From Halomonas sp. 54_146 (GTDB lineage: Bacteria > Pseudomonadota > Gammaproteobacteria > Pseudomonadales > Halomonadaceae), in the NCBI RefSeq assembly GCF_001507855.1, contig NZ_LGEN01000005.1, positions 62,001-126,000 on the forward strand: 64,000 nucleotides of DNA. Reading direction: 5' to 3'. Under the pieces are notes generated by a model. The model did not search any database, was not told the origin of the DNA, and saw nothing but the letters and a program-made list of their open reading frames with translations. Both the position numbers and the translations under genes were made by a program. This document shows positions 25,981 through 46,071 of the stretch, piece by piece (the stretch's first letter is position 1; the number at the start of each line of letters is the position of its first letter).

Positions 25981-26797
25981 ATAGCGCGATCTCACCGTAC
26001 TCTTCACGAAGGCGCTCTAATCTGGCCATTTCATTTTCGGTTAACGCAGGCGAATCCCAAAAACTTTCATCATCAGCGCCCTGTACGCCTTCCAAAGTGA
26101 TGGTTAACGCAGCTGCGTCAGGAATTTGAGCGTTACCCCACGGGCCGAAGCGGTTGGGCGCAAGGCTCCACGCCAGCGTTTCACCGGGTTCAATACCGCC
26201 TGGTATCACGTAATAAAAAGACTCATCTACCCACGGCACAGACCTATCGGTGCTAGTCACCACTCCTCTCAGAAACAGCGTAGAAACAGCCCGTTCAGTG
26301 CCATTAGTAACCGTAAGGTCAATCACCGGCTCTGGGGCACCGTAGGGGCTCTGCGTCATGTAAAACAACGCTTCATCAATAGTGAAGCGCGCTAGCTGCT
26401 GCTTATCGTGTACTGCATTTGCGTGTTTCTCTTCTAGGCGAGTCAGCGTGCGAATGGCCTGCTCCCGCTCTCTTGAGCGCCGCTGACGCAGTATTTCATC
26501 CGCGCGCCGAATGACCTGATCTCCCGTTAGGCCATGCATTTGAGCATTGGCTAATTCGGCGATTTCGGCGGCGTTCATCCGGTGAGGATTAAGAATATCG
26601 ATACCGTTAAAGGTCGCCGTAGCCATAATGATCAGCCCTTGATCAAAATCATCGCGCTTATAAGCGGGCAGCGATTCACGCACCTTCTCGACAGAGACCA
26701 CCGACGCCGGCATAGAGCTAGTGTCTATTTTGGGGTCTGAACAACCGGCTAGCATCAACACCGATAGCAATATTGCAGACAGCCGCAGGCTCCACAT
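25967..26797 (-). CDS. Lipoprotein, DUF6694-like
   Basis: 276 aa. Type II signal peptide with hydrophobic core AILLSVLMLAGC, lipidated Cys near residue 19, and Ser-Asp after it. The N-terminal third (IDTSSMPASVVSVEKVRESL, ADEILRQRRSREREQAIRTLTRLEEKHAN) is helical and resembles DUF6694 lipoproteins; the second half is a beta-rich domain (PVIDLTVTNGTERAVSTLFLRGVV) like an immunoglobulin-type fold. Probably an envelope protein; function unknown. Confidence 0.75.
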   Translation of the reverse strand: MWSLRLSAILLSVLMLAGCSDPKIDTSSMPASVVSVEKVRESLPAYKRDDFDQGLIIMATATFNGIDILNPHRMNAAEIAELANAQMHGLTGDQVIRRADEILRQRRSREREQAIRTLTRLEEKHANAVHDKQQLARFTIDEALFYMTQSPYGAPEPVIDLTVTNGTERAVSTLFLRGVVTSTDRSVPWVDESFYYVIPGGIEPGETLAWSLAPNRFGPWGNAQIPDAAALTITLEGVQGADDESFWDSPALTENEMARLERLREEYGEIALSSAE

Positions 26798-32697: not shown

Positions 32698-32711
32698 TTG
32701 ATCAATATCAG
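32698..32711 (+). promoter_or_regulatory. FNR/ANR-type box upstream of the ethylbenzene-dehydrogenase-like gene
   Basis: TTGAT-CAAT-ATCAG matches 9 of 10 conserved positions of TTGAT-N4-ATCAA. A CATACT -10-like element lies about 26 bp downstream, giving a class II-like geometry, and the gene starts about 73 nt after the box. Confidence 0.7.
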
Positions 32712-32783
32712 GGCATACTTTTTAGGTGTGGCCATACTGACGGAGGACAATCAATAAATTTGCCCTTCAGAGCAGGAGTTCAC

Positions 32784-34226
32784 ATGGGAACACGTAATAA
32801 GAGAGCAGGTCCTTGGCTGGTTCTCGGGCTGCCGATCGCCCTCGGGCTGGCCTGGATCACCCAAGGCAGCGGGGTGATCGAAAATGACCTTGAGCGCAAT
32901 ATTTACATCCCCGAAGAGCTGACCATGCCGCTGCAGGTGCAGGCTGCCCACAATGGCGAACAGATCTTCTTCCGCTATCGCTGGCCGGCATCGCAGCCCC
33001 ATGTTTATCACGACATGCTGCGCTACGAGGACGGCGAGTGGATTCGCCACGGCCGCTCGGTGCCAGGGCCTGACCCCGACGGCACCTACGAAGACCGGGT
33101 CGCCATGTTGGTAGATGACGGTGGCGTGCCCCAGTTCAGCCGCTATGGCGGCTACATCACCGTTGGCAACCAGATGCGCTTCTTCACCAACTCCGCGTCA
33201 CCGGCTGACGTACAAGCGCACCCGCATTTGGGTGAGCAGCTAGGCCAGAGCGACGTGCGCAAGTATCTGCCGGCCACGCGAACGGATCAGAACGACTGGC
33301 GCAGCGTGGTGGATGCCGACGTACTGACGACACAGCGCGAGGCCGGCTATTTCCTCGACCTCTGGCACTGGCGCGCAGGGCGCTCCAATGCTGTTAATGC
33401 CTCGGATGACCAGTGGATCGGCGAGTATCGCAACAGTGATGCCGGCACGGGCCCTTACACCACCAACTGGGACGGCGACACCAACCAGCCTCGCTGGATG
33501 CTCGACCCTGAGCAGACCGGTCAGCGCGCCCTGCGCTGGGAAGACGTGACCTCTGGGCAGGTCGATTTCGACGGCCTTTATTTCCTGTCGGAAAACAATC
33601 GGACCGATTTCGACCCTGACCACGACTGGCAAAACGGCGATGTCATCCCGAGACGGCTACTGCGCCAACCTGACGGCTCCCGCGGCGACATCACGGTGAA
33701 CGCAGGCCCCGCGCGTTGGGAAGACGGCTACTGGGACGTGACTCTGATGCGGGACATGGATACCCGAAGCCCGTTGGACGACAAAGCGTTCCGGGAACAG
33801 GGCGTTTATGATATTGCCATCGGCGTTTACCGCAACGCTACCGGCAGCCGCTGGCATTACGTGTCTCATCCTTACACGGTGGGCCTTGGGCGCGAAGCAG
33901 ACTTTCAGGCGATGGCCTTTGAAGGCGACTCGCCGGATTGGTCGTCTGACTGGTTCGACATGACCCTCTTCTACCCCGGTCAGGTCGATTGGCCGCTGCT
34001 GATCAGCCGCGCCCATGCTGGTGCCGAGGACATCGCCCAGGGCACCCCGGTGCGGGCGCGCCACAGCGAAAAACAGCTTGCCCTATACGGCGTGGAGATG
34101 GAATTTAACGACGCCATTACCAGCCGCTGGATGATGACGCTAATAGCGGGCCTAATCGCCATGCTCGGCGTGGCTATCGCCCTGCTGCCCGCCTTCCGCC
34201 AAACTCGCCAAGGAGACCGCTCATGA
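32784..34226 (+). CDS. Ethylbenzene-dehydrogenase-related haem protein with C-terminal membrane anchor
   Basis: 480 aa from ATG 32784 (AGGAG 5 nt upstream); the longer track ORF lacks support. N-terminal hydrophobic signal/anchor (WLVLGLPIALGLAWI), then a long EB_dh-type haem-b-binding domain (PLQVQAAHNGEQIFFRYRW, DGYWDVTLMRDMDT, VYDIAIGVYRNATGSRWHYVS), and a final membrane helix (MMTLIAGLIAMLGVAIALLPAF). This domain is the gamma subunit of DMSO-reductase-type enzymes, but no molybdenum subunit is present here. Overlaps the next gene by 4 bp (ATGA). Codon usage is visibly GC-richer than nsrR/narL. Confidence 0.8.
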   Translation: MGTRNKRAGPWLVLGLPIALGLAWITQGSGVIENDLERNIYIPEELTMPLQVQAAHNGEQIFFRYRWPASQPHVYHDMLRYEDGEWIRHGRSVPGPDPDGTYEDRVAMLVDDGGVPQFSRYGGYITVGNQMRFFTNSASPADVQAHPHLGEQLGQSDVRKYLPATRTDQNDWRSVVDADVLTTQREAGYFLDLWHWRAGRSNAVNASDDQWIGEYRNSDAGTGPYTTNWDGDTNQPRWMLDPEQTGQRALRWEDVTSGQVDFDGLYFLSENNRTDFDPDHDWQNGDVIPRRLLRQPDGSRGDITVNAGPARWEDGYWDVTLMRDMDTRSPLDDKAFREQGVYDIAIGVYRNATGSRWHYVSHPYTVGLGREADFQAMAFEGDSPDWSSDWFDMTLFYPGQVDWPLLISRAHAGAEDIAQGTPVRARHSEKQLALYGVEMEFNDAITSRWMMTLIAGLIAMLGVAIALLPAFRQTRQGDRS

Positions 34227-34774
34227 ACGGCACCCATGCCATGCTCTCCCACTTTCCGGTGGGCTTCTGGGCACTTGCCACTCTGATGATCCTGGTTGGT
34301 GCTTTCATGACCGGCCGCTTGGCCGAAATCAGCCGCGCCGCTTTGCTGCCGGTGCTGGTGCTTAGCCTGCTGGGGGCACTCGCCGCCATCGCCATTGGGT
34401 TGATTGTTTGGCCGATGGCCGCCAACCTGACCAGCCCGCTGGCGCGCAACCATATCCTAATGTCCTTTTGGTCGCTGGGCATCTACGCCGTGATAACCGT
34501 GCTGGTATGGAAAGCCGGTGATACAGCCTTCGACGACGCTCGCCGTTGGGCGCTGGTGATCTTGGCGCTGACCGGTGGCCTGATGTTCTCGGCGGCCGGC
34601 ACCCTGGGCGGCCACCTTGCGGGTTCTACCACCGCTTTTTCCAAGGTGCTGGGCCTGATGGGTTGGGAGGTCTACACCACCTTCTATAGCCCACTGTGGG
34701 TTATTGCCATCATGGTGCTCATCGGCATTGCCCTGGGGGCACTCGGCATTATGAGCCAGCGCCGAACCGGCTGA
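34223..34774 (+). CDS. DUF2231-like four/five-helix membrane protein, partner of the EB_dh protein
   Basis: 183 aa, almost entirely membrane-embedded. It opens with MNGTHAMLSHFPVGFWALATL, matching the HxxxxHFP start of DUF2231 proteins, and has a later GGHLAG like the DUF2231 GGxLV motif; the His residues are plausible haem or metal ligands. AGGAGA lies 6 nt before ATG, and the start codon overlaps the upstream stop, so the two proteins are translationally coupled and probably form a complex. Function unknown. Confidence 0.75.
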   Translation: MNGTHAMLSHFPVGFWALATLMILVGAFMTGRLAEISRAALLPVLVLSLLGALAAIAIGLIVWPMAANLTSPLARNHILMSFWSLGIYAVITVLVWKAGDTAFDDARRWALVILALTGGLMFSAAGTLGGHLAGSTTAFSKVLGLMGWEVYTTFYSPLWVIAIMVLIGIALGALGIMSQRRTG

Positions 34775-34798: not shown

Positions 34799-34824
34799 AA
34801 GGGGCTCGCTTTAGCGAGCCCCTT
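34799..34824 (+). terminator. Terminator after the EB_dh/DUF2231 unit
   Basis: Perfect inverted repeat AAGGGGCTCGCT / AGCGAGCCCCTT with minimal loop TT (effective loop CTTTAG), 25 nt after the stop; T tract is weak. Confidence 0.75.
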
Positions 34825-38763: not shown

Positions 38764-39672
38764 TCACAAAAACTTAGTTAACTGCAGGCGGAAGAGATCC
38801 CCATCGCTTTCCAAACCTTTTAAGCCACCGGCCTGCGCGTCATATTCATGATAGTAAGCGCCTTTGAGCATCAGCCCAGCGGTAGGCCACAGGTAACCTG
38901 TTTCAGCCCCGATAGCATGGCGTTCCGCCTTGTTGGTGGTGGGCGCGCCCTGGTCGGCTTCTAACTGCCAGGCATTGTAGCCCACCAGCCCCAATTCAAC
39001 GCCGTTGCTCAAACGATGCCCGACCCCCCATTCCACCAACCAGCTGTCACCCGGCGTAATGCCGGTATCGTCCTGTTCGGTCTTGATTTCGTAACGCGAC
39101 AGCGCCGAGACGTTCCAACGCTTCTCCTCGTCAAAGTACCACACGCCCCCCAGCGTCAGCATGGTGGTGCCATAGCCCTTGCCTACTGAAGCGGGGTTAT
39201 CAGCATCGAAGCTGGCAGTATCGAACCAATGGCCGCCCGCAACGGTGATATCCCACTGTTCGCCGTGCCAACCGAGTATCAGCGGGCCGACTAACACATC
39301 GCCAATGCCGTTGTCATCAAAACGATTACCGCCGGCAACATCCAGGTCAAACTCGATATCCAGCAGAGGAATAATCGCTTCCATGCCGTAGTCGGCACCG
39401 AGGAAGGTTTTATCTGTCATCCAAATAAAGCGATGAGCTAGTGCGTTCACCGTACCGCTATTATTACCCGGCACCGTTGCGCCCGTGCCATCTTTGAAGC
39501 TATCAACATCGTAGTGAATCAGGTAGGCGCGATAGTAAAGCCCCGGTGGCGGTGCCGATGCTGCGCTCAACCCTTCAATGCCGAGTGAATAATGGCCGTT
39601 GACGGCAAGCGCTGACGGTGTTGCGGCACTAGCACTCAGTGCCGCCAGGAAAATGGAGGCTGTTTTTTTCAT
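38764..39672 (-). CDS. SphA / MetA-pathway outer-membrane protein
   Basis: 302 aa with a cleavable signal peptide (MKKTASIFLAALSASAATPSALA) and a beta-barrel-like body ending in a terminal aromatic-hydrophobic strand (LFRLQLTKFL). Matches the family annotated as MetA-pathway of phenol degradation or SphA: GIEGLSAASAPPPGLYYRAYLIHYDVD and GDVLVGPLILGW are typical. Likely a channel for hydrophobic phenolics, encoded inside the catabolic operon between the aldehyde and alcohol dehydrogenase genes. Confidence 0.82.
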   Translation of the reverse strand: MKKTASIFLAALSASAATPSALAVNGHYSLGIEGLSAASAPPPGLYYRAYLIHYDVDSFKDGTGATVPGNNSGTVNALAHRFIWMTDKTFLGADYGMEAIIPLLDIEFDLDVAGGNRFDDNGIGDVLVGPLILGWHGEQWDITVAGGHWFDTASFDADNPASVGKGYGTTMLTLGGVWYFDEEKRWNVSALSRYEIKTEQDDTGITPGDSWLVEWGVGHRLSNGVELGLVGYNAWQLEADQGAPTTNKAERHAIGAETGYLWPTAGLMLKGAYYHEYDAQAGGLKGLESDGDLFRLQLTKFL

Positions 39673-39846
39673 GGCTTGTTATCTCTTTTATCAGCCGACG
39701 TGTCACCCGTGGCGGGTGGCAGGCGTTGTTATGAGGGTAAAGGGGTTAGCTAACTAGGCCCCGTTACAGGGCCTAGCTAGAAATGCCTAGTTAAAATAAA
39801 TAGTTATATAAATACTTGGCTATAAAGACCTAGCTAGCAAGGCCTT

Positions 39847-41313
39847 TTAGAAGGGATAGCCACGCGGCGTTTGCTGCACGCTGATCCAGTGGTCGGTAGT
39901 AAACTCCTCGATCGCCCAGTCGCCGTTGAAGCGGCCAAGGCCAGAGTTCTTCTCGCCACCGAAGGGCACGTGGGCTTCGTCGTTGACCGGCATATCGTTG
40001 ACATGCGTCATGCCTGCTTTAATGCCTCTGGCAAAGCGCACGCCGCGTTCCAGGTCGCCGGTAAATACCGCGCTGGAAAGACCGTACTCGGTGCCATTCG
40101 CAAGCGCCAGGGCATGGGCATCGTCGCGGGCTTTCTGAATACCCACCAGCGGGCCGAAGATCTCTTCGCGGCTGATCTCCATCTCTGGGGAGACATCGCC
40201 AAACACATGCGGCGGTACCAGCTGACCGTTAATTTCGCCTTCTACCAGCACGGTCGCGCCTTCACGCTTGGCGGTAGCAATCTTCTCTTCCAGCCCTTCA
40301 CGCTGCTTGGCGTTGATCACCGGCCCAACCACCGTAGCCATATCGTTGGGGTCGCCTACCTGCAGCCCTTTCACCTTAGCAACAAAACGTTCCACAAAGC
40401 CGTCATAGACGCGCTCATCAACGATGATGCGGTTGACCGCCATGCAGATTTGGCCTTGGTGAAGGAATTTACCCATTGCCGCGGCGTTCACCGCTTGGTC
40501 AAGGTCGGCGTCATCCAACACAACGAAGGGGCTATTGCCACCCAGCTCTAGCGCTACCTTCTTGATATGTTCGCCACCGCTGGCAATACGCCCAATGCCA
40601 CGGCCAACCTGGGTTGAGCCCGTGAAAGAGATCATCCGAGGCACGCGGTGCTCAACAAAGGCATCGCCGATTTCACTGCCGGCACCCACCACCACGCTGA
40701 GCAGGCCTGCGGGCAAACCGGCTTCCTCGAAGATTTTCGCCAGCAGTAGCCCGCCGGTCACCGGCGTATCGCTAGCCGGCTTCACCACCACCGCATTGCC
40801 TAGCGCCAGCGCCGGGGCAATAGAGCGCTGGGAAAGGTGTAGCGGAAAGTTCCAAGGGCTGATCACCCCGACCACGCCCAGCGGCTTGCGGTAAACGCGG
40901 TTCTCTTTTCCCGGCACGTTAGACGCCATGGTCATACCGTGAACACGCCCCGGCATGCTGGCCGCTTCCTGGGTGATGCCACGCGCCGCCCCCCACTCAA
41001 CGTTGGCTTTTAGCCGGGTACTGCCTGATTCACGAATCAGCCAGTCGATAATTTCATCCTTACGTGCATCAAAAATCGCCACTACCCGGTGCATTAAACT
41101 CGCGCGCTCAGCAGGCGGTTTCGCCGCCCACTCGGCCTGGGCTTTTTCTGCCGCTGTAAACGCAGCATCTAAATCGCTGCGATCCGCTAGGCGAATCGAC
41201 AGCAGTGCGCTGCCATCGTAAGGGTTGGTAACGTCCGTGGTGCGCTCGCTGCTACCCTCGCGCCACTCACCCGCAATAGGCTGAAGATGAAAATCGCTAT
41301 AAGCGCTGCTCAT
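39847..41313 (-). CDS. Aromatic aldehyde (benzaldehyde/4-hydroxybenzaldehyde) dehydrogenase
   Basis: NAD(P)-dependent ALDH, 488 aa from ATG 41313 (AGGAG 8 nt upstream; the track start is a TTG two codons earlier). Catalytic Glu in [10 protein letters not shown] (about residue 254), nucleophile Cys in [10 protein letters not shown] (about 288), oxyanion Asn in [10 protein letters not shown]. Overall sequence fits benzaldehyde/vanillin dehydrogenases. In P. putida the p-cresol cluster encodes PchA (4-hydroxybenzaldehyde dehydrogenase) beside pchCXF, which is the position here. Product would be 4-hydroxybenzoate. Confidence 0.88.
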
Positions 41314-41375
41314 AATCAAAACTCCTGAGTCTGTATAAATAACAAGCCGTTCAGAGGTGACATATTAAGCCTCTT

Positions 41376-42926
41376 TTACTGACGAATACCCGACTTGCCT
41401 GGCGATAAAATACCGTTAGGGTCTAGTGCGTTCTTCAGTGCGGTATGTACATTGCGCAGCGGCTCGCCAAACGTACCGGCGACCTGCTCCATAAACTCAG
41501 TGTTAGTGCGGTAGAGGCCATAGCCACGCTTAGCAAACTCATCAATCAGCTCAGCGAAACAGTCGTGAGCACGCTGGGTCTCTTCGGGGTCTTCACGGTT
41601 GTAGAGCAGGTCGATGACGTGGTGCATATCGCGCCAGCCAACGATGTATTCGGCCACGTAGTCAAAGCCGTATTTGCCGAGAATCTGCTGGGCCAATTCG
41701 GTCTGATCTTTGGTTTCGCTGCCCTTGGCCTGAGACACCGGCGCAAACCACATAGAACCACCGCCCCCACGCCAGTTGTAAAGGCCGAATTCCTGCAGGT
41801 TCATGTCACCTTTCATCAGTGCTGAGCGATACTCGAAGCCACCGCCCCGCTTTTCAGCTTCTTCACCGTACATGATGTTGGCTTTGCCGCTGGCGCTGAA
41901 GGCCTGCTCAACGATCTTCCAGTTGACCTCAATTTGCTCAGGCGTGCCGTAGAGCGCCGCGTAGACGTTCCATTCACCGATGCCCTCGTCGGCCTTGATG
42001 CGCTCGATGGCTTCTCTGGGGATAGATTCTTTACCGTTGTAGTAGTCTTTGCGCACTACGTGGGTACCTGCATCCCACAGGGTATGCACAATCACTACCG
42101 CGTTAGGAATAATTTGCGCGATACGCAGCGGGCGCAGCACATCAACAATTTCAGCGATATCTTCAGGATCTTGATACTGGATCAAGAAAGGCCGGTACGC
42201 CGGTGGCTCAGGCATCAGCCACAGCCCCATTTTGGTCACGACACCGTAGTTAGACTGAGTGAAGAGGCCGTCAATGTAAGGCCCATAACCCCATTTAAAC
42301 ACCTGCCACGAGCTGGAATTTTCAATACCGCCCATCCCGGTGCGAATCATCTCGCCGTTGGCCAGCACTACTTCCATACCGCACTGAAACATAAAGTGCT
42401 CGCCGTAGGGGGTATAGCCCACACCGCGGTCTAGCGTATTGCCCACTGGCCCTGCAATGGCAGACGGCGCTGGCGGGTCTAGCCACAGCTTGTAGCCTTT
42501 CTCTTTGATATAGTCGTAAAGCTGCTGATAGGTAACGCCCGGCTCAATCAGCGCCGTACAGACCTCTGGGTCTACGTTGATAATACGGTTCAAACGGTGC
42601 AAATCGAGGATAACCTGCCCGGTGGCACCCGGCGCTGCCGAGCCATAGCCAAGGTTTTTACCCGTAGAAATAGTCCAGATCGGCACTTTGTACTGGTTGC
42701 AGATGCGGACAATTTCCTGCACCTGCTCAGCTTCGTTGGGTAGCAACGCTGCCGACGGAATATAGTCGGCGTCGTCACCGGCCATCATGATTTTGGTATA
42801 GGGCGCTAGCTGTTCGCTCTCGGTCAGAACACTCTCGCTGCCAATCGTGTCGCGAAACAGGTTTAACGCGGCATCGAAATCGGCCTCTGCAACGCCTTTA
42901 GGCAAAATACGCTGTGTCGTGCTCAT
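41376..42926 (-). CDS. pchF: 4-cresol dehydrogenase-type flavoprotein (PCMH/VAO family)
   Basis: 516-aa FAD oxidoreductase hydroxylating the methyl or alkyl group para to a phenol through a quinone methide, passing electrons to a cytochrome c. FAD-binding domain: PIWTISTGKNLGYGSAAPGA and GLDPPAP-like segment WLDPPAPSAIAGPVGNTLDRGVGYTPYGEH. Substrate/cap domain: LYNWRGGGGSMWFAPVSQ, RDMHHVIDLLYNRED, DPNGILSPGKSGI. 4-cresol dehydrogenase and eugenol hydroxylase share this layout, so the substrate may be p-cresol, 4-ethylphenol or a propenylphenol. The cytochrome partner is encoded upstream. Confidence 0.9.
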   Translation of the reverse strand: MSTTQRILPKGVAEADFDAALNLFRDTIGSESVLTESEQLAPYTKIMMAGDDADYIPSAALLPNEAEQVQEIVRICNQYKVPIWTISTGKNLGYGSAAPGATGQVILDLHRLNRIINVDPEVCTALIEPGVTYQQLYDYIKEKGYKLWLDPPAPSAIAGPVGNTLDRGVGYTPYGEHFMFQCGMEVVLANGEMIRTGMGGIENSSSWQVFKWGYGPYIDGLFTQSNYGVVTKMGLWLMPEPPAYRPFLIQYQDPEDIAEIVDVLRPLRIAQIIPNAVVIVHTLWDAGTHVVRKDYYNGKESIPREAIERIKADEGIGEWNVYAALYGTPEQIEVNWKIVEQAFSASGKANIMYGEEAEKRGGGFEYRSALMKGDMNLQEFGLYNWRGGGGSMWFAPVSQAKGSETKDQTELAQQILGKYGFDYVAEYIVGWRDMHHVIDLLYNREDPEETQRAHDCFAELIDEFAKRGYGLYRTNTEFMEQVAGTFGEPLRNVHTALKNALDPNGILSPGKSGIRQ

Positions 42927-42991
42927 AAATGTGTCTCTCGATTATTGTGCTTTAAATTCAGGGCGATTTAGAGATTCAAGGTGCTTTAACG

Positions 42992-43528
42992 TCACAGTTG
43001 GACCAAAAAGCTCAGCTCGCTACCGCTCGCCGTCGTTGCCGTGCGCTGGAAGCGTTGAGCATGACGGTGACGATCAGAGGTCAACGCTAAGCGGGCATAC
43101 TCACGCCCTAATGACGCCTGCCAACTGCCGGTTTCAATGGCCAAGGGTTCGATCACAGGGCCACGGTGGCTTAACAGCTGGTGCTGGTCTGGCGCGTGAC
43201 GCCCCAGCGCAAGCAGCCGACCACGCCCGGCAAGTAGGCTGGTCAGCAGCACGATGCCAGACTCATCGGTAAAGCCGGCGGCCAGCGTACCCGTGGGTAA
43301 CGCACTCAGCGCCAGCGGATTAAAGGCACCTTCATAGCGGGGTTGCAAGCCTAGCTGACGCAGCCCAAGCCCAAGCTCCGTGGTCGATTGATCATGACCA
43401 TAAAGCGTAATGTGGCCTTGCAGCGGCACACTGGCCGGGTTCGCGGCGAAGGCGCTGGCTAGCGATAACGGAGCGGTAGCGCCCAGTAAAAAGCTGTTTT
43501 TGAGTAACGCTCGGCGAGTTAACTTCAT
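42992..43528 (-). CDS. pchX: PchX-like exported protein of unknown function
   Basis: 178 aa. The N-terminus MKLTRRALLKNSFLLGATAPLSLASAFA has a twin-arginine-like start (TRRALLK), hydrophobic core and AFA cleavage site, so it is probably exported, perhaps by Tat. The mature part has no recognised domain or cofactor motif; it contains GHDQSTTELGLGLRQLGLQP and GIVLLTSLLAGRGRLLALGRH. Its place between pchC and pchF equals pchX in the known P. putida pchACXF cluster; the symbol rests on position, not on proven homology. Confidence 0.7.
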   Translation of the reverse strand: MKLTRRALLKNSFLLGATAPLSLASAFAANPASVPLQGHITLYGHDQSTTELGLGLRQLGLQPRYEGAFNPLALSALPTGTLAAGFTDESGIVLLTSLLAGRGRLLALGRHAPDQHQLLSHRGPVIEPLAIETGSWQASLGREYARLALTSDRHRHAQRFQRTATTASGSELSFLVQL

Positions 43529-43533
43529 GGCAT

Positions 43534-43944
43534 TTACTCCTCACCGGCAGCGGCATTTGCCAGTTCACCGCGCAGTAACGCATCAATCAGTTCGTCAAGT
43601 TCTGCATTGCTAACTTTGGCTTCACGCAGTGAAGGCATGGCAGCACGGCCTTGCCGCACCGTGTTACGAATATAAGTGCCGCGTGCTTCCCAGGCAGTCT
43701 CGGGGAAAGGCATGGTAATCATGGGGCCAACGGCTTTATCCAGGTTGTGACAATGAGAGCAAACCTGCCGATACACTTCGGCAGGTTCACGCTCTTCAGC
43801 GGCAACGCTTGTAGTAGCCAGTGGCAGCAATAGGCTACCCGCCACTAGAAGGCGTTTAAACGTAGAAGAGGAAAGCAGCCGAAGCGGCATGCGGGCAGGG
43901 GCTGGGGTGTCTACAGTGTACCGATTGATTGTTATGTTGTGCAT
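43534..43944 (-). CDS. pchC: Cytochrome c subunit of the cresol dehydrogenase
   Basis: 136 aa as called. A single haem c motif CSHCH (about residue 62) and a downstream axial-Met candidate (RAAMPSLREAKVS) define a class I cytochrome. The signal peptide is LLVAGSLLLPLATTSVAA. The first 18 residues before MPLRLLSSS may not be translated: the alternative start is 43890, and neither has a strong ribosome site. It accepts electrons from the PchF flavin. First gene of the minus-strand operon, 5 bp before pchX. Confidence 0.85.
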   Translation of the reverse strand: MHNITINRYTVDTPAPARMPLRLLSSSTFKRLLVAGSLLLPLATTSVAAEEREPAEVYRQVCSHCHNLDKAVGPMITMPFPETAWEARGTYIRNTVRQGRAAMPSLREAKVSNAELDELIDALLRGELANAAAGEE

Positions 43945-44181
43945 ATTAGCATCATCCGTTATTTCGCCAAGGGTATGTCAGTTGCAAGGTACCCAGTACG
44001 GCCATTGAGAGTCTAAAACAAGAGCCTAAAACTTTAGTATAAATCAATGGTTTATCGCTGGCCTCATGGCAACTACCTATCAAAATCCGTGCCGATATTA
44101 AAAATAATACAGCTATCAAGGGGTTAGTAGACCAGTATGGCACCACCGTCTGCTTAGCGAACGTCTGTTCGCAAATAGCGT

Positions 44182-44216
44182 TTAATCATTTGATTAACGC
44201 TTCATCAAATGATCAA
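44182..44216 (-). promoter_or_regulatory. Tandem XylR/DmpR-type upstream activating sequences
   Basis: TTAATCATTTGATTAA (44182-44197, 13/16 to the XylR UAS TTGATCAATTGATCAA) and TTCATCAAATGATCAA (44201-44216, 14/16) lie 19 bp apart, about 240-270 nt upstream of pchC and 150 nt before the divergent activator gene. A matching -24/-12 promoter with GG-N10-GC was not found between here and pchC. Confidence 0.7.
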
Positions 44217-44240
44217 CCTGTTTTCGACCATGCCATCCTT

Positions 44241-44292
44241 GCGCTTTTTCAACGTGCTTTTTCGAAGTGCTTTTTTAACGTGCTTTTCCAAG
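44241..44292 (+). repeat. 13-bp tandem repeat x4 upstream of the activator gene
   Basis: Units GCGCTTTTTCAAC, GTGCTTTTTCGAA, GTGCTTTTTTAAC and GTGCTTTTCCAAG, head-to-tail, between the UAS pair and the activator start. Confidence 0.85.
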
Positions 44293-44364
44293 GCTGCAGG
44301 CCAAGTGATACCCTTACTCGTTCACCTCCAGCCCCCTTCCCTTTTAATCTCAACGTGAGTCGGT

Positions 44365-46071
44365 ATGTTTCTTTCATCCTCAGACTACCCAAACGCTCGC
44401 GACTTAATGGACGCGTTGCGCTTTTTGCCAGAAGAAGGCCAAATTTGGCTAGGCGAGCAACGTATGCTGCTAATGCCGCTTGCCGCGTCGACATTTTTTC
44501 GCAACGAACTCATTACGACATTAGGCATGGAGCGCGCCCGCGGCCTTTTTATGCGCCTGGGGTACTATTCAGGGCTGATGGATGCCGAGCTGGGCGCGTC
44601 GTTAAGGGGGGAACGTTTAGGATTGGAAGACAGTTTTCTCGCCGGGCCACAGCTTCATGCGCTGCAAGGGCATGTGCAGGCAGTCCCTATCAGCCTGGAA
44701 ATAAATCTAGAAGAGGATCGCTTTTATAGCGAATTTATCTGGAAAGACTCGTTTGAGGTAGATGTATGGCGCTCTCGCGGGCAACAGCGCGAACCGGCCT
44801 GTTGGACACTGCTCGGTTACGCCTCTGGCTACGCCACCCAACTCCTGGGGCGCGAAGTTCAGTATAGAGAGGTGAGTTGCCGCTCCTGTGGTGACGACAA
44901 CTGCCGCATTATTGGCAAGCTGGCAGAAGAATGGCCTGACCACGCCGCCTTTGCTGACTTACTGCGTGAAGCCCCTTTGATCGATGAGCTTTACGAACTT
45001 CAAGCGCGTATTGCCACACTGGAAAGCGACCTGGCGCGCACCCGCGAAACGGAAAGCTGGGGGCCAATTGGTTCAACGCCCGCCTTTCGCGAAATGCTCA
45101 CCATGCTCGATAGCGCAGCACCCTCTGAAGTGCCCGTGTTGCTACTGGGTGAAACCGGCACGGGAAAAGAAATTCTTGCGCGACGTTTGCACGATAATAG
45201 CCTTCGCGCCAGCGGGCCGTTTATTGCCGTGAACTGCGCGGCCATACCGCCTGAACTGATAGAGTCAGAGCTATTTGGCGTCGAAAAAGGAGCCTACACT
45301 GGGGCGGTGCAGTCGCGTATGGGGCGTTTTGAACGCGCCGATGGTGGCACCCTTTTTCTGGATGAGCTGGCTGAGCTTTCGCCGCGCGCGCAGGCAGCGC
45401 TGTTACGTGTGTTGCAGGAAGGCCAGATTGAACGCGTGGGCGGCGAGAGCGTCACCGAGGTCAACGTGCGTATCGTTGCCGCTACGCATACCGATTTACT
45501 CACCCGTGTTGAACAGGGAAGTTTTCGCCAGGATCTGTTTTATCGCCTAAACGCCTTTACCTTGAACGTGCCACCGCTGTGCCAGCGCCTGGACGATATC
45601 GTGCCCTTGGCGAAGCATTTTCTCAGCCATTTTGAACATCACTACCAACGCCGCACTCTGGGGTTTTCCGATCAGGCGCGCTCTGCCATGCACCAGTACC
45701 GCTGGCCAGGCAACGTGCGCGAGCTCAAAAATTGCGTCGAACGCGGTGTGATTCTTACCCCGGATAATAAACACCTAACCGAAAAAGCCTTATTCGGTGA
45801 TTACCGCGTACCCACCCTGGAACGCGAAAAAGCGCAAGGCTTGAACGATACCGGCATGCTGATGCCATCACCGGATGAGCATTCCAGCAACGCATCGCCC
45901 CGCCAGCGTATTCAACCGTTACTAGACGCTGGCATGACCTTGGAAGAAGTAGAAAAAGCACTCATCCAAGCCGTTAATAGTGATAGCGGCGGCAATATAA
46001 CGGCAGCGGCACAGCGGCTGGGAATGACCCGTGCAGCCTATGCCTACCGTCTGAAAAAACATCAACTGTGA
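44365..46071 (+). CDS. Sigma-54-dependent phenolic-sensing activator (DmpR/XylR/PoxR type)
   Basis: 568 aa. N-terminal XylR_N effector domain (about 1-140), V4R zinc-like module with CRSCGDDNC (about 173-181), linker, AAA+ domain with Walker A GETGTGKE (about 265) and the sigma-54 contact loop GAYTGAVQSRMGRFERADGG, then a Fis-type HTH (NITAAAQRLGMTRAAYAYRLKKH). In DmpR/XylR the effector domain binds phenols and derepresses the ATPase. Divergent orientation to the pch operon and the UAS pair between them make that operon the probable target. Ribosome site weak. Confidence 0.9.
   Translation: MFLSSSDYPNARDLMDALRFLPEEGQIWLGEQRMLLMPLAASTFFRNELITTLGMERARGLFMRLGYYSGLMDAELGASLRGERLGLEDSFLAGPQLHALQGHVQAVPISLEINLEEDRFYSEFIWKDSFEVDVWRSRGQQREPACWTLLGYASGYATQLLGREVQYREVSCRSCGDDNCRIIGKLAEEWPDHAAFADLLREAPLIDELYELQARIATLESDLARTRETESWGPIGSTPAFREMLTMLDSAAPSEVPVLLLGETGTGKEILARRLHDNSLRASGPFIAVNCAAIPPELIESELFGVEKGAYTGAVQSRMGRFERADGGTLFLDELAELSPRAQAALLRVLQEGQIERVGGESVTEVNVRIVAATHTDLLTRVEQGSFRQDLFYRLNAFTLNVPPLCQRLDDIVPLAKHFLSHFEHHYQRRTLGFSDQARSAMHQYRWPGNVRELKNCVERGVILTPDNKHLTEKALFGDYRVPTLEREKAQGLNDTGMLMPSPDEHSSNASPRQRIQPLLDAGMTLEEVEKALIQAVNSDSGGNITAAAQRLGMTRAAYAYRLKKHQL

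Follow-up and report, generated by a model that had tools for sequence, protein, structure and literature searches.

Positions 32698-34774 of the 64,000-nt stretch of Halomonas sp. 54_146 DNA analysed here (the window) hold a stand-alone gene pair, in which an EB_dh-family protein is translationally coupled to a DUF2231-like membrane protein. We give an even chance to the reading that the pair is an oxygen-limitation-induced operon for a membrane b-type cytochrome complex, which draws electrons from the quinol pool and relays them to the periplasm. All features of the unit lie on the forward strand. The first gene (32784..34226), assigned from PF09459, AlphaFold and Foldseek, encodes the putative EB_dh haem-relay protein of 480 residues; its start codon, the ATG at 32784, lies 3′ of a promoter box and is preceded by an AGGAG Shine-Dalgarno sequence (32774..32778). 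The second gene (34223..34774), assigned from PF09990 and helix prediction, encodes a 183-residue protein with five transmembrane helices. The TGA of the EB_dh gene overlaps the ATG of the DUF2231 gene as ATGA, a junction that is found again in most orthologs. Directly 3′ of the second gene, a hairpin composed of GGGGCTCGC-TTTA-GCGAGCCCC (34801..34822) is probably the intrinsic terminator that closes the unit. A sequence-only reading of the window had proposed such an ATGA-coupled pair of a membrane-anchored EB_dh protein and a multi-helix DUF2231 protein without a molybdenum subunit; the open reading frames, the PF09459 match, the transmembrane helices and the PF09990 matches of the orthologs bear this out, and no molybdenum subunit was found near the pair in the window or in any ortholog neighbourhood examined.

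The conservation scan, using one genome per species, yielded 32 loci with EB_dh relatives at 50-90% identity, and the DUF2231 gene immediately follows the EB_dh gene in all loci where the contig continues. The pair ranges over Halomonadaceae, Marinobacter and alphaproteobacterial MAGs (Rhizobium, Devosia, Rhodospirillales), and in one Nitriliruptorales MAG the EB_dh gene sits at the contig end. Among the sampled Halomonadaceae, 9/151 genomes carry the pair. A search for carriage on plasmids gave no pair; a NirT-EB_dh fusion was the sole match to EB_dh, and DUF2231 had none. The flanking genes vary, including purEK, phoX, UbiA, GGDEF proteins, TRAP transporters, an AhpC-type protein and a cytochrome b5/ferric reductase pair. 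Given this strict succession of the two genes amid differing flanks, the pair is a real, stand-alone bicistron that occurs in varied contexts, and the nitrogen-oxide neighbours in the window are not part of it. In about 10 of 30 loci, a ferric-reductase-like flavoprotein gene (c17) and a membrane cytochrome b5 gene (c10) run divergently from the pair, lying upstream of it in L036, L040, L041, L045, L048, L050, L053, L058 and L062; the host genome also has c17, on a different contig. Both were rejected as fixed partners, as they adjoin in that minority of loci and c17 also occurs in the pair-less G039, G063, G119 and G133; the ABC/FtsX permeases of L060 and L105 were dismissed as not recurrent. 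On the other side of the pair in the window, a probable aromatic-compound cluster (38764-46071) contains a MetA-pathway porin (PF13557) together with three genes assigned from sequence only, for an aldehyde dehydrogenase, a FAD-linked oxidase and a sigma54-type activator.

Upstream of the EB_dh gene lies an FNR/ANR-type box (TTGATCAATATCAG, 32698..32711), which matches TTGAT-N4-ATCAA at 9/10 positions and is centred 79 bp 5′ of the ATG. It is followed after 21 bp by a -10-like element CATACT (32733..32738), and CAYACT recurs at the same 21-bp gap in most box-bearing orthologous promoters. The centres of the box and the -10 element are 31 bp apart. In class II FNR promoters, the box stands about 31 bp from the centre of the -10 element, and thus the pair promoter has class II geometry. 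Promoters were scored against TTGAT-N4-ATCAA in a slot 60-110 bp 5′ of the start codon, with a threshold of at least 8/10. Such a box is present in 21/33 pair promoters versus 16/384 other promoters of the same loci (Fisher P=2e-17, uncorrected for shared ancestry), so that the TTGAT-N4-ATCAG box pointed out in the sequence-only reading is indeed a recurrent feature. The match is perfect (10/10) in the pair promoters of L031, L043, L051 and L055, and about one third of the pair promoters (Marinobacter, L049, L060, L062, L104 and L105) have a weak box or none. The host genome encodes one FNR, whose cysteine pattern CX2CX5C...C (C20/23/29/122) and VETVSR recognition helix mark it as a canonical Fe-S FNR. 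Taken together, the conserved box in a fixed slot, the CAYACT spacing and the Fe-S FNR of the host make FNR/ANR control of the pair, in response to oxygen limitation, well supported at the sequence level. A second FNR-like site (TTGATCAAAATCAT, 26639-26652), some 400 bp ahead of nnrS, falls within the coding sequence of a small lipoprotein.

In the window, the pair is preceded by nnrS, hmp, a gene for an Rrf2 regulator closest to NsrR, and narL. This neighbourhood could point to a dedicated nitrogen-oxide device, in which an NO-binding haem serves NO defence or feeds a denitrification enzyme. The products of narL (by NCBIfam) and hmp each score above their own cut-offs, and to that extent the NO-response neighbourhood previously described is confirmed; the “nsrR” product has NsrR as its best match yet stays under the equivalog cut-off (135 versus 182), and, among the loci read, the narL/nsrR/hmp context was confined to the genome of the window. 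A specific nitrogen-oxide role deduced from the neighbours was therefore rejected. Co-occurrence also gives a mixed picture. NosZ and NirS are each found in 17/28 pair-bearing genomes, versus 24/142 and 20/142 other Halomonadaceae, respectively (P about 1e-6), an enrichment confounded by genus; within the main genus, NosZ is present in 3/3 pair-bearing genomes versus 11/19 others, which is not significant (P=0.24). The co-occurrence of narG with the pair is 6/9 versus 67/142 (P=0.22). Many denitrifiers of the main genus lack the pair, whereas G054 possesses the pair and none of narG, napA, nirS, nirK and nosZ; napA is missing from several pair-bearing genomes. A search of the host genome found no narG, nirS, nirK or nosZ, and its nap operon is complete (napD-napA-napB-napC; L117 / L118, contig C2) with an intact NapC. 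Since the host has Nap only, with a NapC of its own, and the narL/nsrR/hmp context is not conserved, the link between the pair and nitrogen oxides is weak, and we regard the nitrogen-oxide device as improbable. Of the redox-module role suggested earlier for anaerobic or nitrogen-oxide respiration, the Mo-free, membrane-anchored architecture and the FNR-type anaerobic control hold, and the specific nitrogen-oxide part is not borne out by the host, by G054 or by the context. The suggested check for co-occurrence with denitrification genes gave an enrichment of NosZ and NirS across the family that is confounded by genus and, for NosZ, not significant within it; both genes are absent from the host.

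The EB_dh protein matches PF09459 with an E-value of 5e-53 (180.9 bits versus a gathering cut-off of 33.3). It consists of a periplasmic EB_dh domain (residues 34-361) flanked by two transmembrane helices, a signal-anchor (residues 11-27) and a C-terminal helix (residues 442-471), and contains no cysteines, hence no CxxCH motif. Foldseek search with the AlphaFold model (pLDDT 81) retrieved NxrC (7b04_C, 1.4e-7) and EbdC (2ivf_C, 5.6e-6), both with a probability of 1.00. The protein shares its fold and Pfam family with EbdC, NxrC and the gamma subunits of type-II DMSO reductases; however, these are soluble subunits of molybdenum enzymes, whereas the pair protein has no molybdenum partner and groups elsewhere in the tree. 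It scores 18.3 bits against TIGR03477 (type-II DMSO reductase gamma; cut-off 169.85), and no alpha or beta genes were found near the pair in any locus. The protein might still be the stray gamma subunit of a type-II enzyme encoded elsewhere, and the host (G000) does encode a complete operon of the type-II DMSO reductase family (L094:3073-8563, contig C75), with alpha, beta, chaperone and gamma above or near the NCBIfam cut-offs. Nevertheless, that operon includes an EB_dh gamma of its own, which exceeds the TIGR03477 cut-off, no such gamma was found in the other sampled pair-bearing genomes, and the pair protein groups with relays rather than molybdenum gammas, leaving this option with hardly any credit; phylogeny, the TIGR03477 score and the separate, complete operon led us to reject the identity of the pair protein as a molybdenum gamma subunit. 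Nor does a distant molybdenum operon always accompany the pair, an outcome that the earlier reading had counted against itself: among nine pair-bearing genomes, the window's own is the one with a type-II enzyme. The next genes after the contig C75 operon encode a NUBPL-like (ParA) Fe-S protein and a beta-propeller protein.

The view that EB_dh domains normally serve as haem subunits of molybdenum enzymes, from which the pair was first judged an orphan, is incomplete, as Mo-free EB_dh relays are known. In Azospira suillum PS, NapO and PcrO are Mo-free diheme cytochrome c carriers homologous to EB_dh (PMC5845722). With NapC/PcrQ as donors, they supply electrons to the reductases for nitrate (NapAB) and perchlorate (PcrABC). 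They operate with separate, interchangeable NapC/PcrQ proteins, and the loss of both carriers abolishes anaerobic growth on nitrate or perchlorate (PMC5845722). In the EB_dh domain tree, the pair clade has a support of 94, and its sister group comprises proteins that each bear one CxxCH and one CX3CH (L066-L070). We call this group NapO-like because an EB_dh domain and c-haem motifs beside a NapC-type gene fit the published description of NapO/PcrO; if the label holds, NapO/PcrO would be the sister of the pair protein. The node joining the pair and NapO-like proteins has a support of 100, and the type-II molybdenum gamma subunits fall apart from this relay group.

Comparison of the two sister groups revealed a segment, LFYPGQ...H411...H427 (residues 395-430; 33966..34073), just before the C-terminal transmembrane helix of the pair protein. 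By hhalign, its homologue is the haem-c segment at the N-terminus of the NapO-like proteins (prob 96.5, E=1e-9), which start with LFYPGQ...H...CxxCH, whereas the counterpart in the pair protein sits at the C-terminus; the two share the pattern LFYPGQ-H-(C)xx(C)H. Both cysteines are replaced in all pair orthologs, and H411 and H427 are kept in 31/31 pair proteins. The homology, the replaced cysteines and the invariant histidines suggest that the segment is a former haem-c site, which today would be haem-free or hold a non-covalent haem. Within the EB_dh domain, H76, M108, K160 and H358 are candidate ligands of haem b; among them, H76, K160 and H358 recur in the NapO-like and NirT-EB_dh proteins as well as in the pair proteins, and have no aligned counterpart in the two molybdenum gamma subunits examined. 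In contrast to the pair protein, the NapO-like proteins keep CxxCH and CX3CH and accompany NapC/PcrQ; compared to NapO, the pair protein lacks both c-haem motifs along with every cysteine, and has two transmembrane anchors and a DUF2231 partner. What is new here is the haem-c-free, DUF2231-partnered version of a Mo-free EB_dh electron relay.

The partner protein is best named DUF2231-like, as the window protein scores 23.9 bits against PF09990, just below the gathering cut-off of 26.4, yet 32/33 orthologs match the family at E<0.01 (best 6e-8). It has four histidines only (H5, H10, H77 and H131), all invariant in 33/33 orthologs, and the structural model and charge distribution predict that all four lie on the periplasmic side. 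Structure search against solved structures gave no significant match. We infer that the protein houses a haem b or a quinol site. Among the other EB_dh loci of the class, 19/28 have a NapC/NirT gene fused or adjacent, compared to 0/35 pair loci; from this gene order, DUF2231 appears to occupy the position of the NapC/NirT quinol dehydrogenase beside EB_dh. Alternatively, EB_dh alone might be the relay and DUF2231 merely an anchor, an assembly factor or a haem-insertion partner, with NapC or a different quinol dehydrogenase as the electron source. The complete host nap operon would supply that NapC, and NapO/PcrO set the precedent of carriers with separate donors; however, the EB_dh protein already has two anchors of its own, the strict coupling and the four invariant histidines suggest a cofactor in DUF2231, and several pair-bearing genomes lack napA. 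On balance, we consider such an ancillary role for DUF2231 unlikely.

The architecture of the pair also parallels that of eukaryotic CYBDOM proteins, which in plants and other eukaryotes combine an extra-cytoplasmic DOMON haem domain with a five-transmembrane cytochrome b561 bearing four histidines and act as ferric reductases (PMC10784552). Like CYBDOM, the pair has a haem-type domain outside the cytoplasm and a five-helix partner with four conserved histidines, and the flavoprotein and cytochrome b5 genes that run divergently beside it in some loci would suit a trans-membrane metal reductase, passing cytoplasmic electrons to periplasmic Fe(III) or Cu(II). Unlike CYBDOM, the pair consists of two genes of different folds and families, and the DUF2231 histidines, in contrast to those of cytochrome b561, are all predicted on one side, which leaves no haem ladder across the membrane. 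Moreover, the ferric-reductase gene also occurs in pair-less genomes and is adjacent in a minority of loci, and FNR control fits respiration better. Metal reduction is accordingly a long shot.

Returning to the quinol-to-periplasm relay, we propose that the Fe-S FNR/ANR protein would act on the box and switch on the operon at low oxygen. The DUF2231-like subunit, a predicted five-helix bundle with its four invariant histidines towards the periplasm, would be the membrane partner; it may carry a His-ligated cofactor, haem b or another, and oxidise quinol, thereby filling the role of NapC/NirT in the related carriers, NapO/PcrO and NirT-EB_dh. Held by its two anchors, the EB_dh subunit would receive these electrons, possibly at the membrane-proximal bis-His site H411/H427, the putative former haem-c site without cysteines. 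The EB_dh haem would then pass them to a c-type cytochrome, a cupredoxin, a reductase or a similar soluble acceptor in the periplasm. We thus infer haem binding, quinol oxidation, and the direction and acceptor of the electrons; the acceptor is probably not fixed, because the pair occurs both with and without denitrification genes. More tentatively, and with doubt outweighing belief, DUF2231 proteins of this kind might form an unrecognised family of membrane quinol dehydrogenases, with a His-ligated, periplasm-facing cofactor, able to replace NapC/NirT and, in this case, to feed an EB_dh relay that is entirely b-type and descends from a NapO-like ancestor with c-type haem. If true, bacteria would have a further route by which quinol-pool electrons reach the periplasm, and a DUF2231 group, for which the literature search gave a single passing mention, would gain its first testable function. 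It would also document the swap of a covalent c-type haem for a non-covalent one, or the loss of haem, in a respiratory relay, and take the NapO/PcrO idea of an EB_dh carrier without molybdenum beyond Azospira, into halophiles and alphaproteobacteria.

EB_dh as a relay adjoining a membrane electron-input module is a recurring theme. NapC/NirT-EB_dh fusions, which lie by nirS in denitrification clusters, resemble the pair in joining EB_dh to a quinol dehydrogenase, but are single polypeptides with four c-haems and without DUF2231. Such a fusion follows nirS in L102:2486-6020 (G111, Halomonas), L121:4545-9987 and L122:4339-8410; in the Azospirillum and Ruegeria plasmids among these, it stands between nirS and azurin. 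This arrangement is likely a dedicated quinol-to-NirS route. Transposon fitness data from P. stutzeri RCH2 show nirS-like effects for an “ethylbenzene dehydrogenase” gene that lies two loci away from nirS (PMC5554334). Cytochrome b561-EB_dh fusions of Halomonadaceae similarly join EB_dh to a membrane cytochrome b, but have another membrane domain (PF01292) and belong to a distant EB_dh branch. One of these (L101:4984-7737, G083; also in G013, G073, G110 and G118) sits beside a 2Fe-2S/FAD/NAD reductase, and the two are possibly a bacterial counterpart of CYBDOM with a cytoplasmic reductase. Another EB_dh gene lies ahead of NapC-like/NrfC/NrfD genes, and in L097:5135-7586 a NapO-like EB_dh gene has two small monohaem cytochromes upstream and overlaps the next frame, which contains ten CxxCH motifs.
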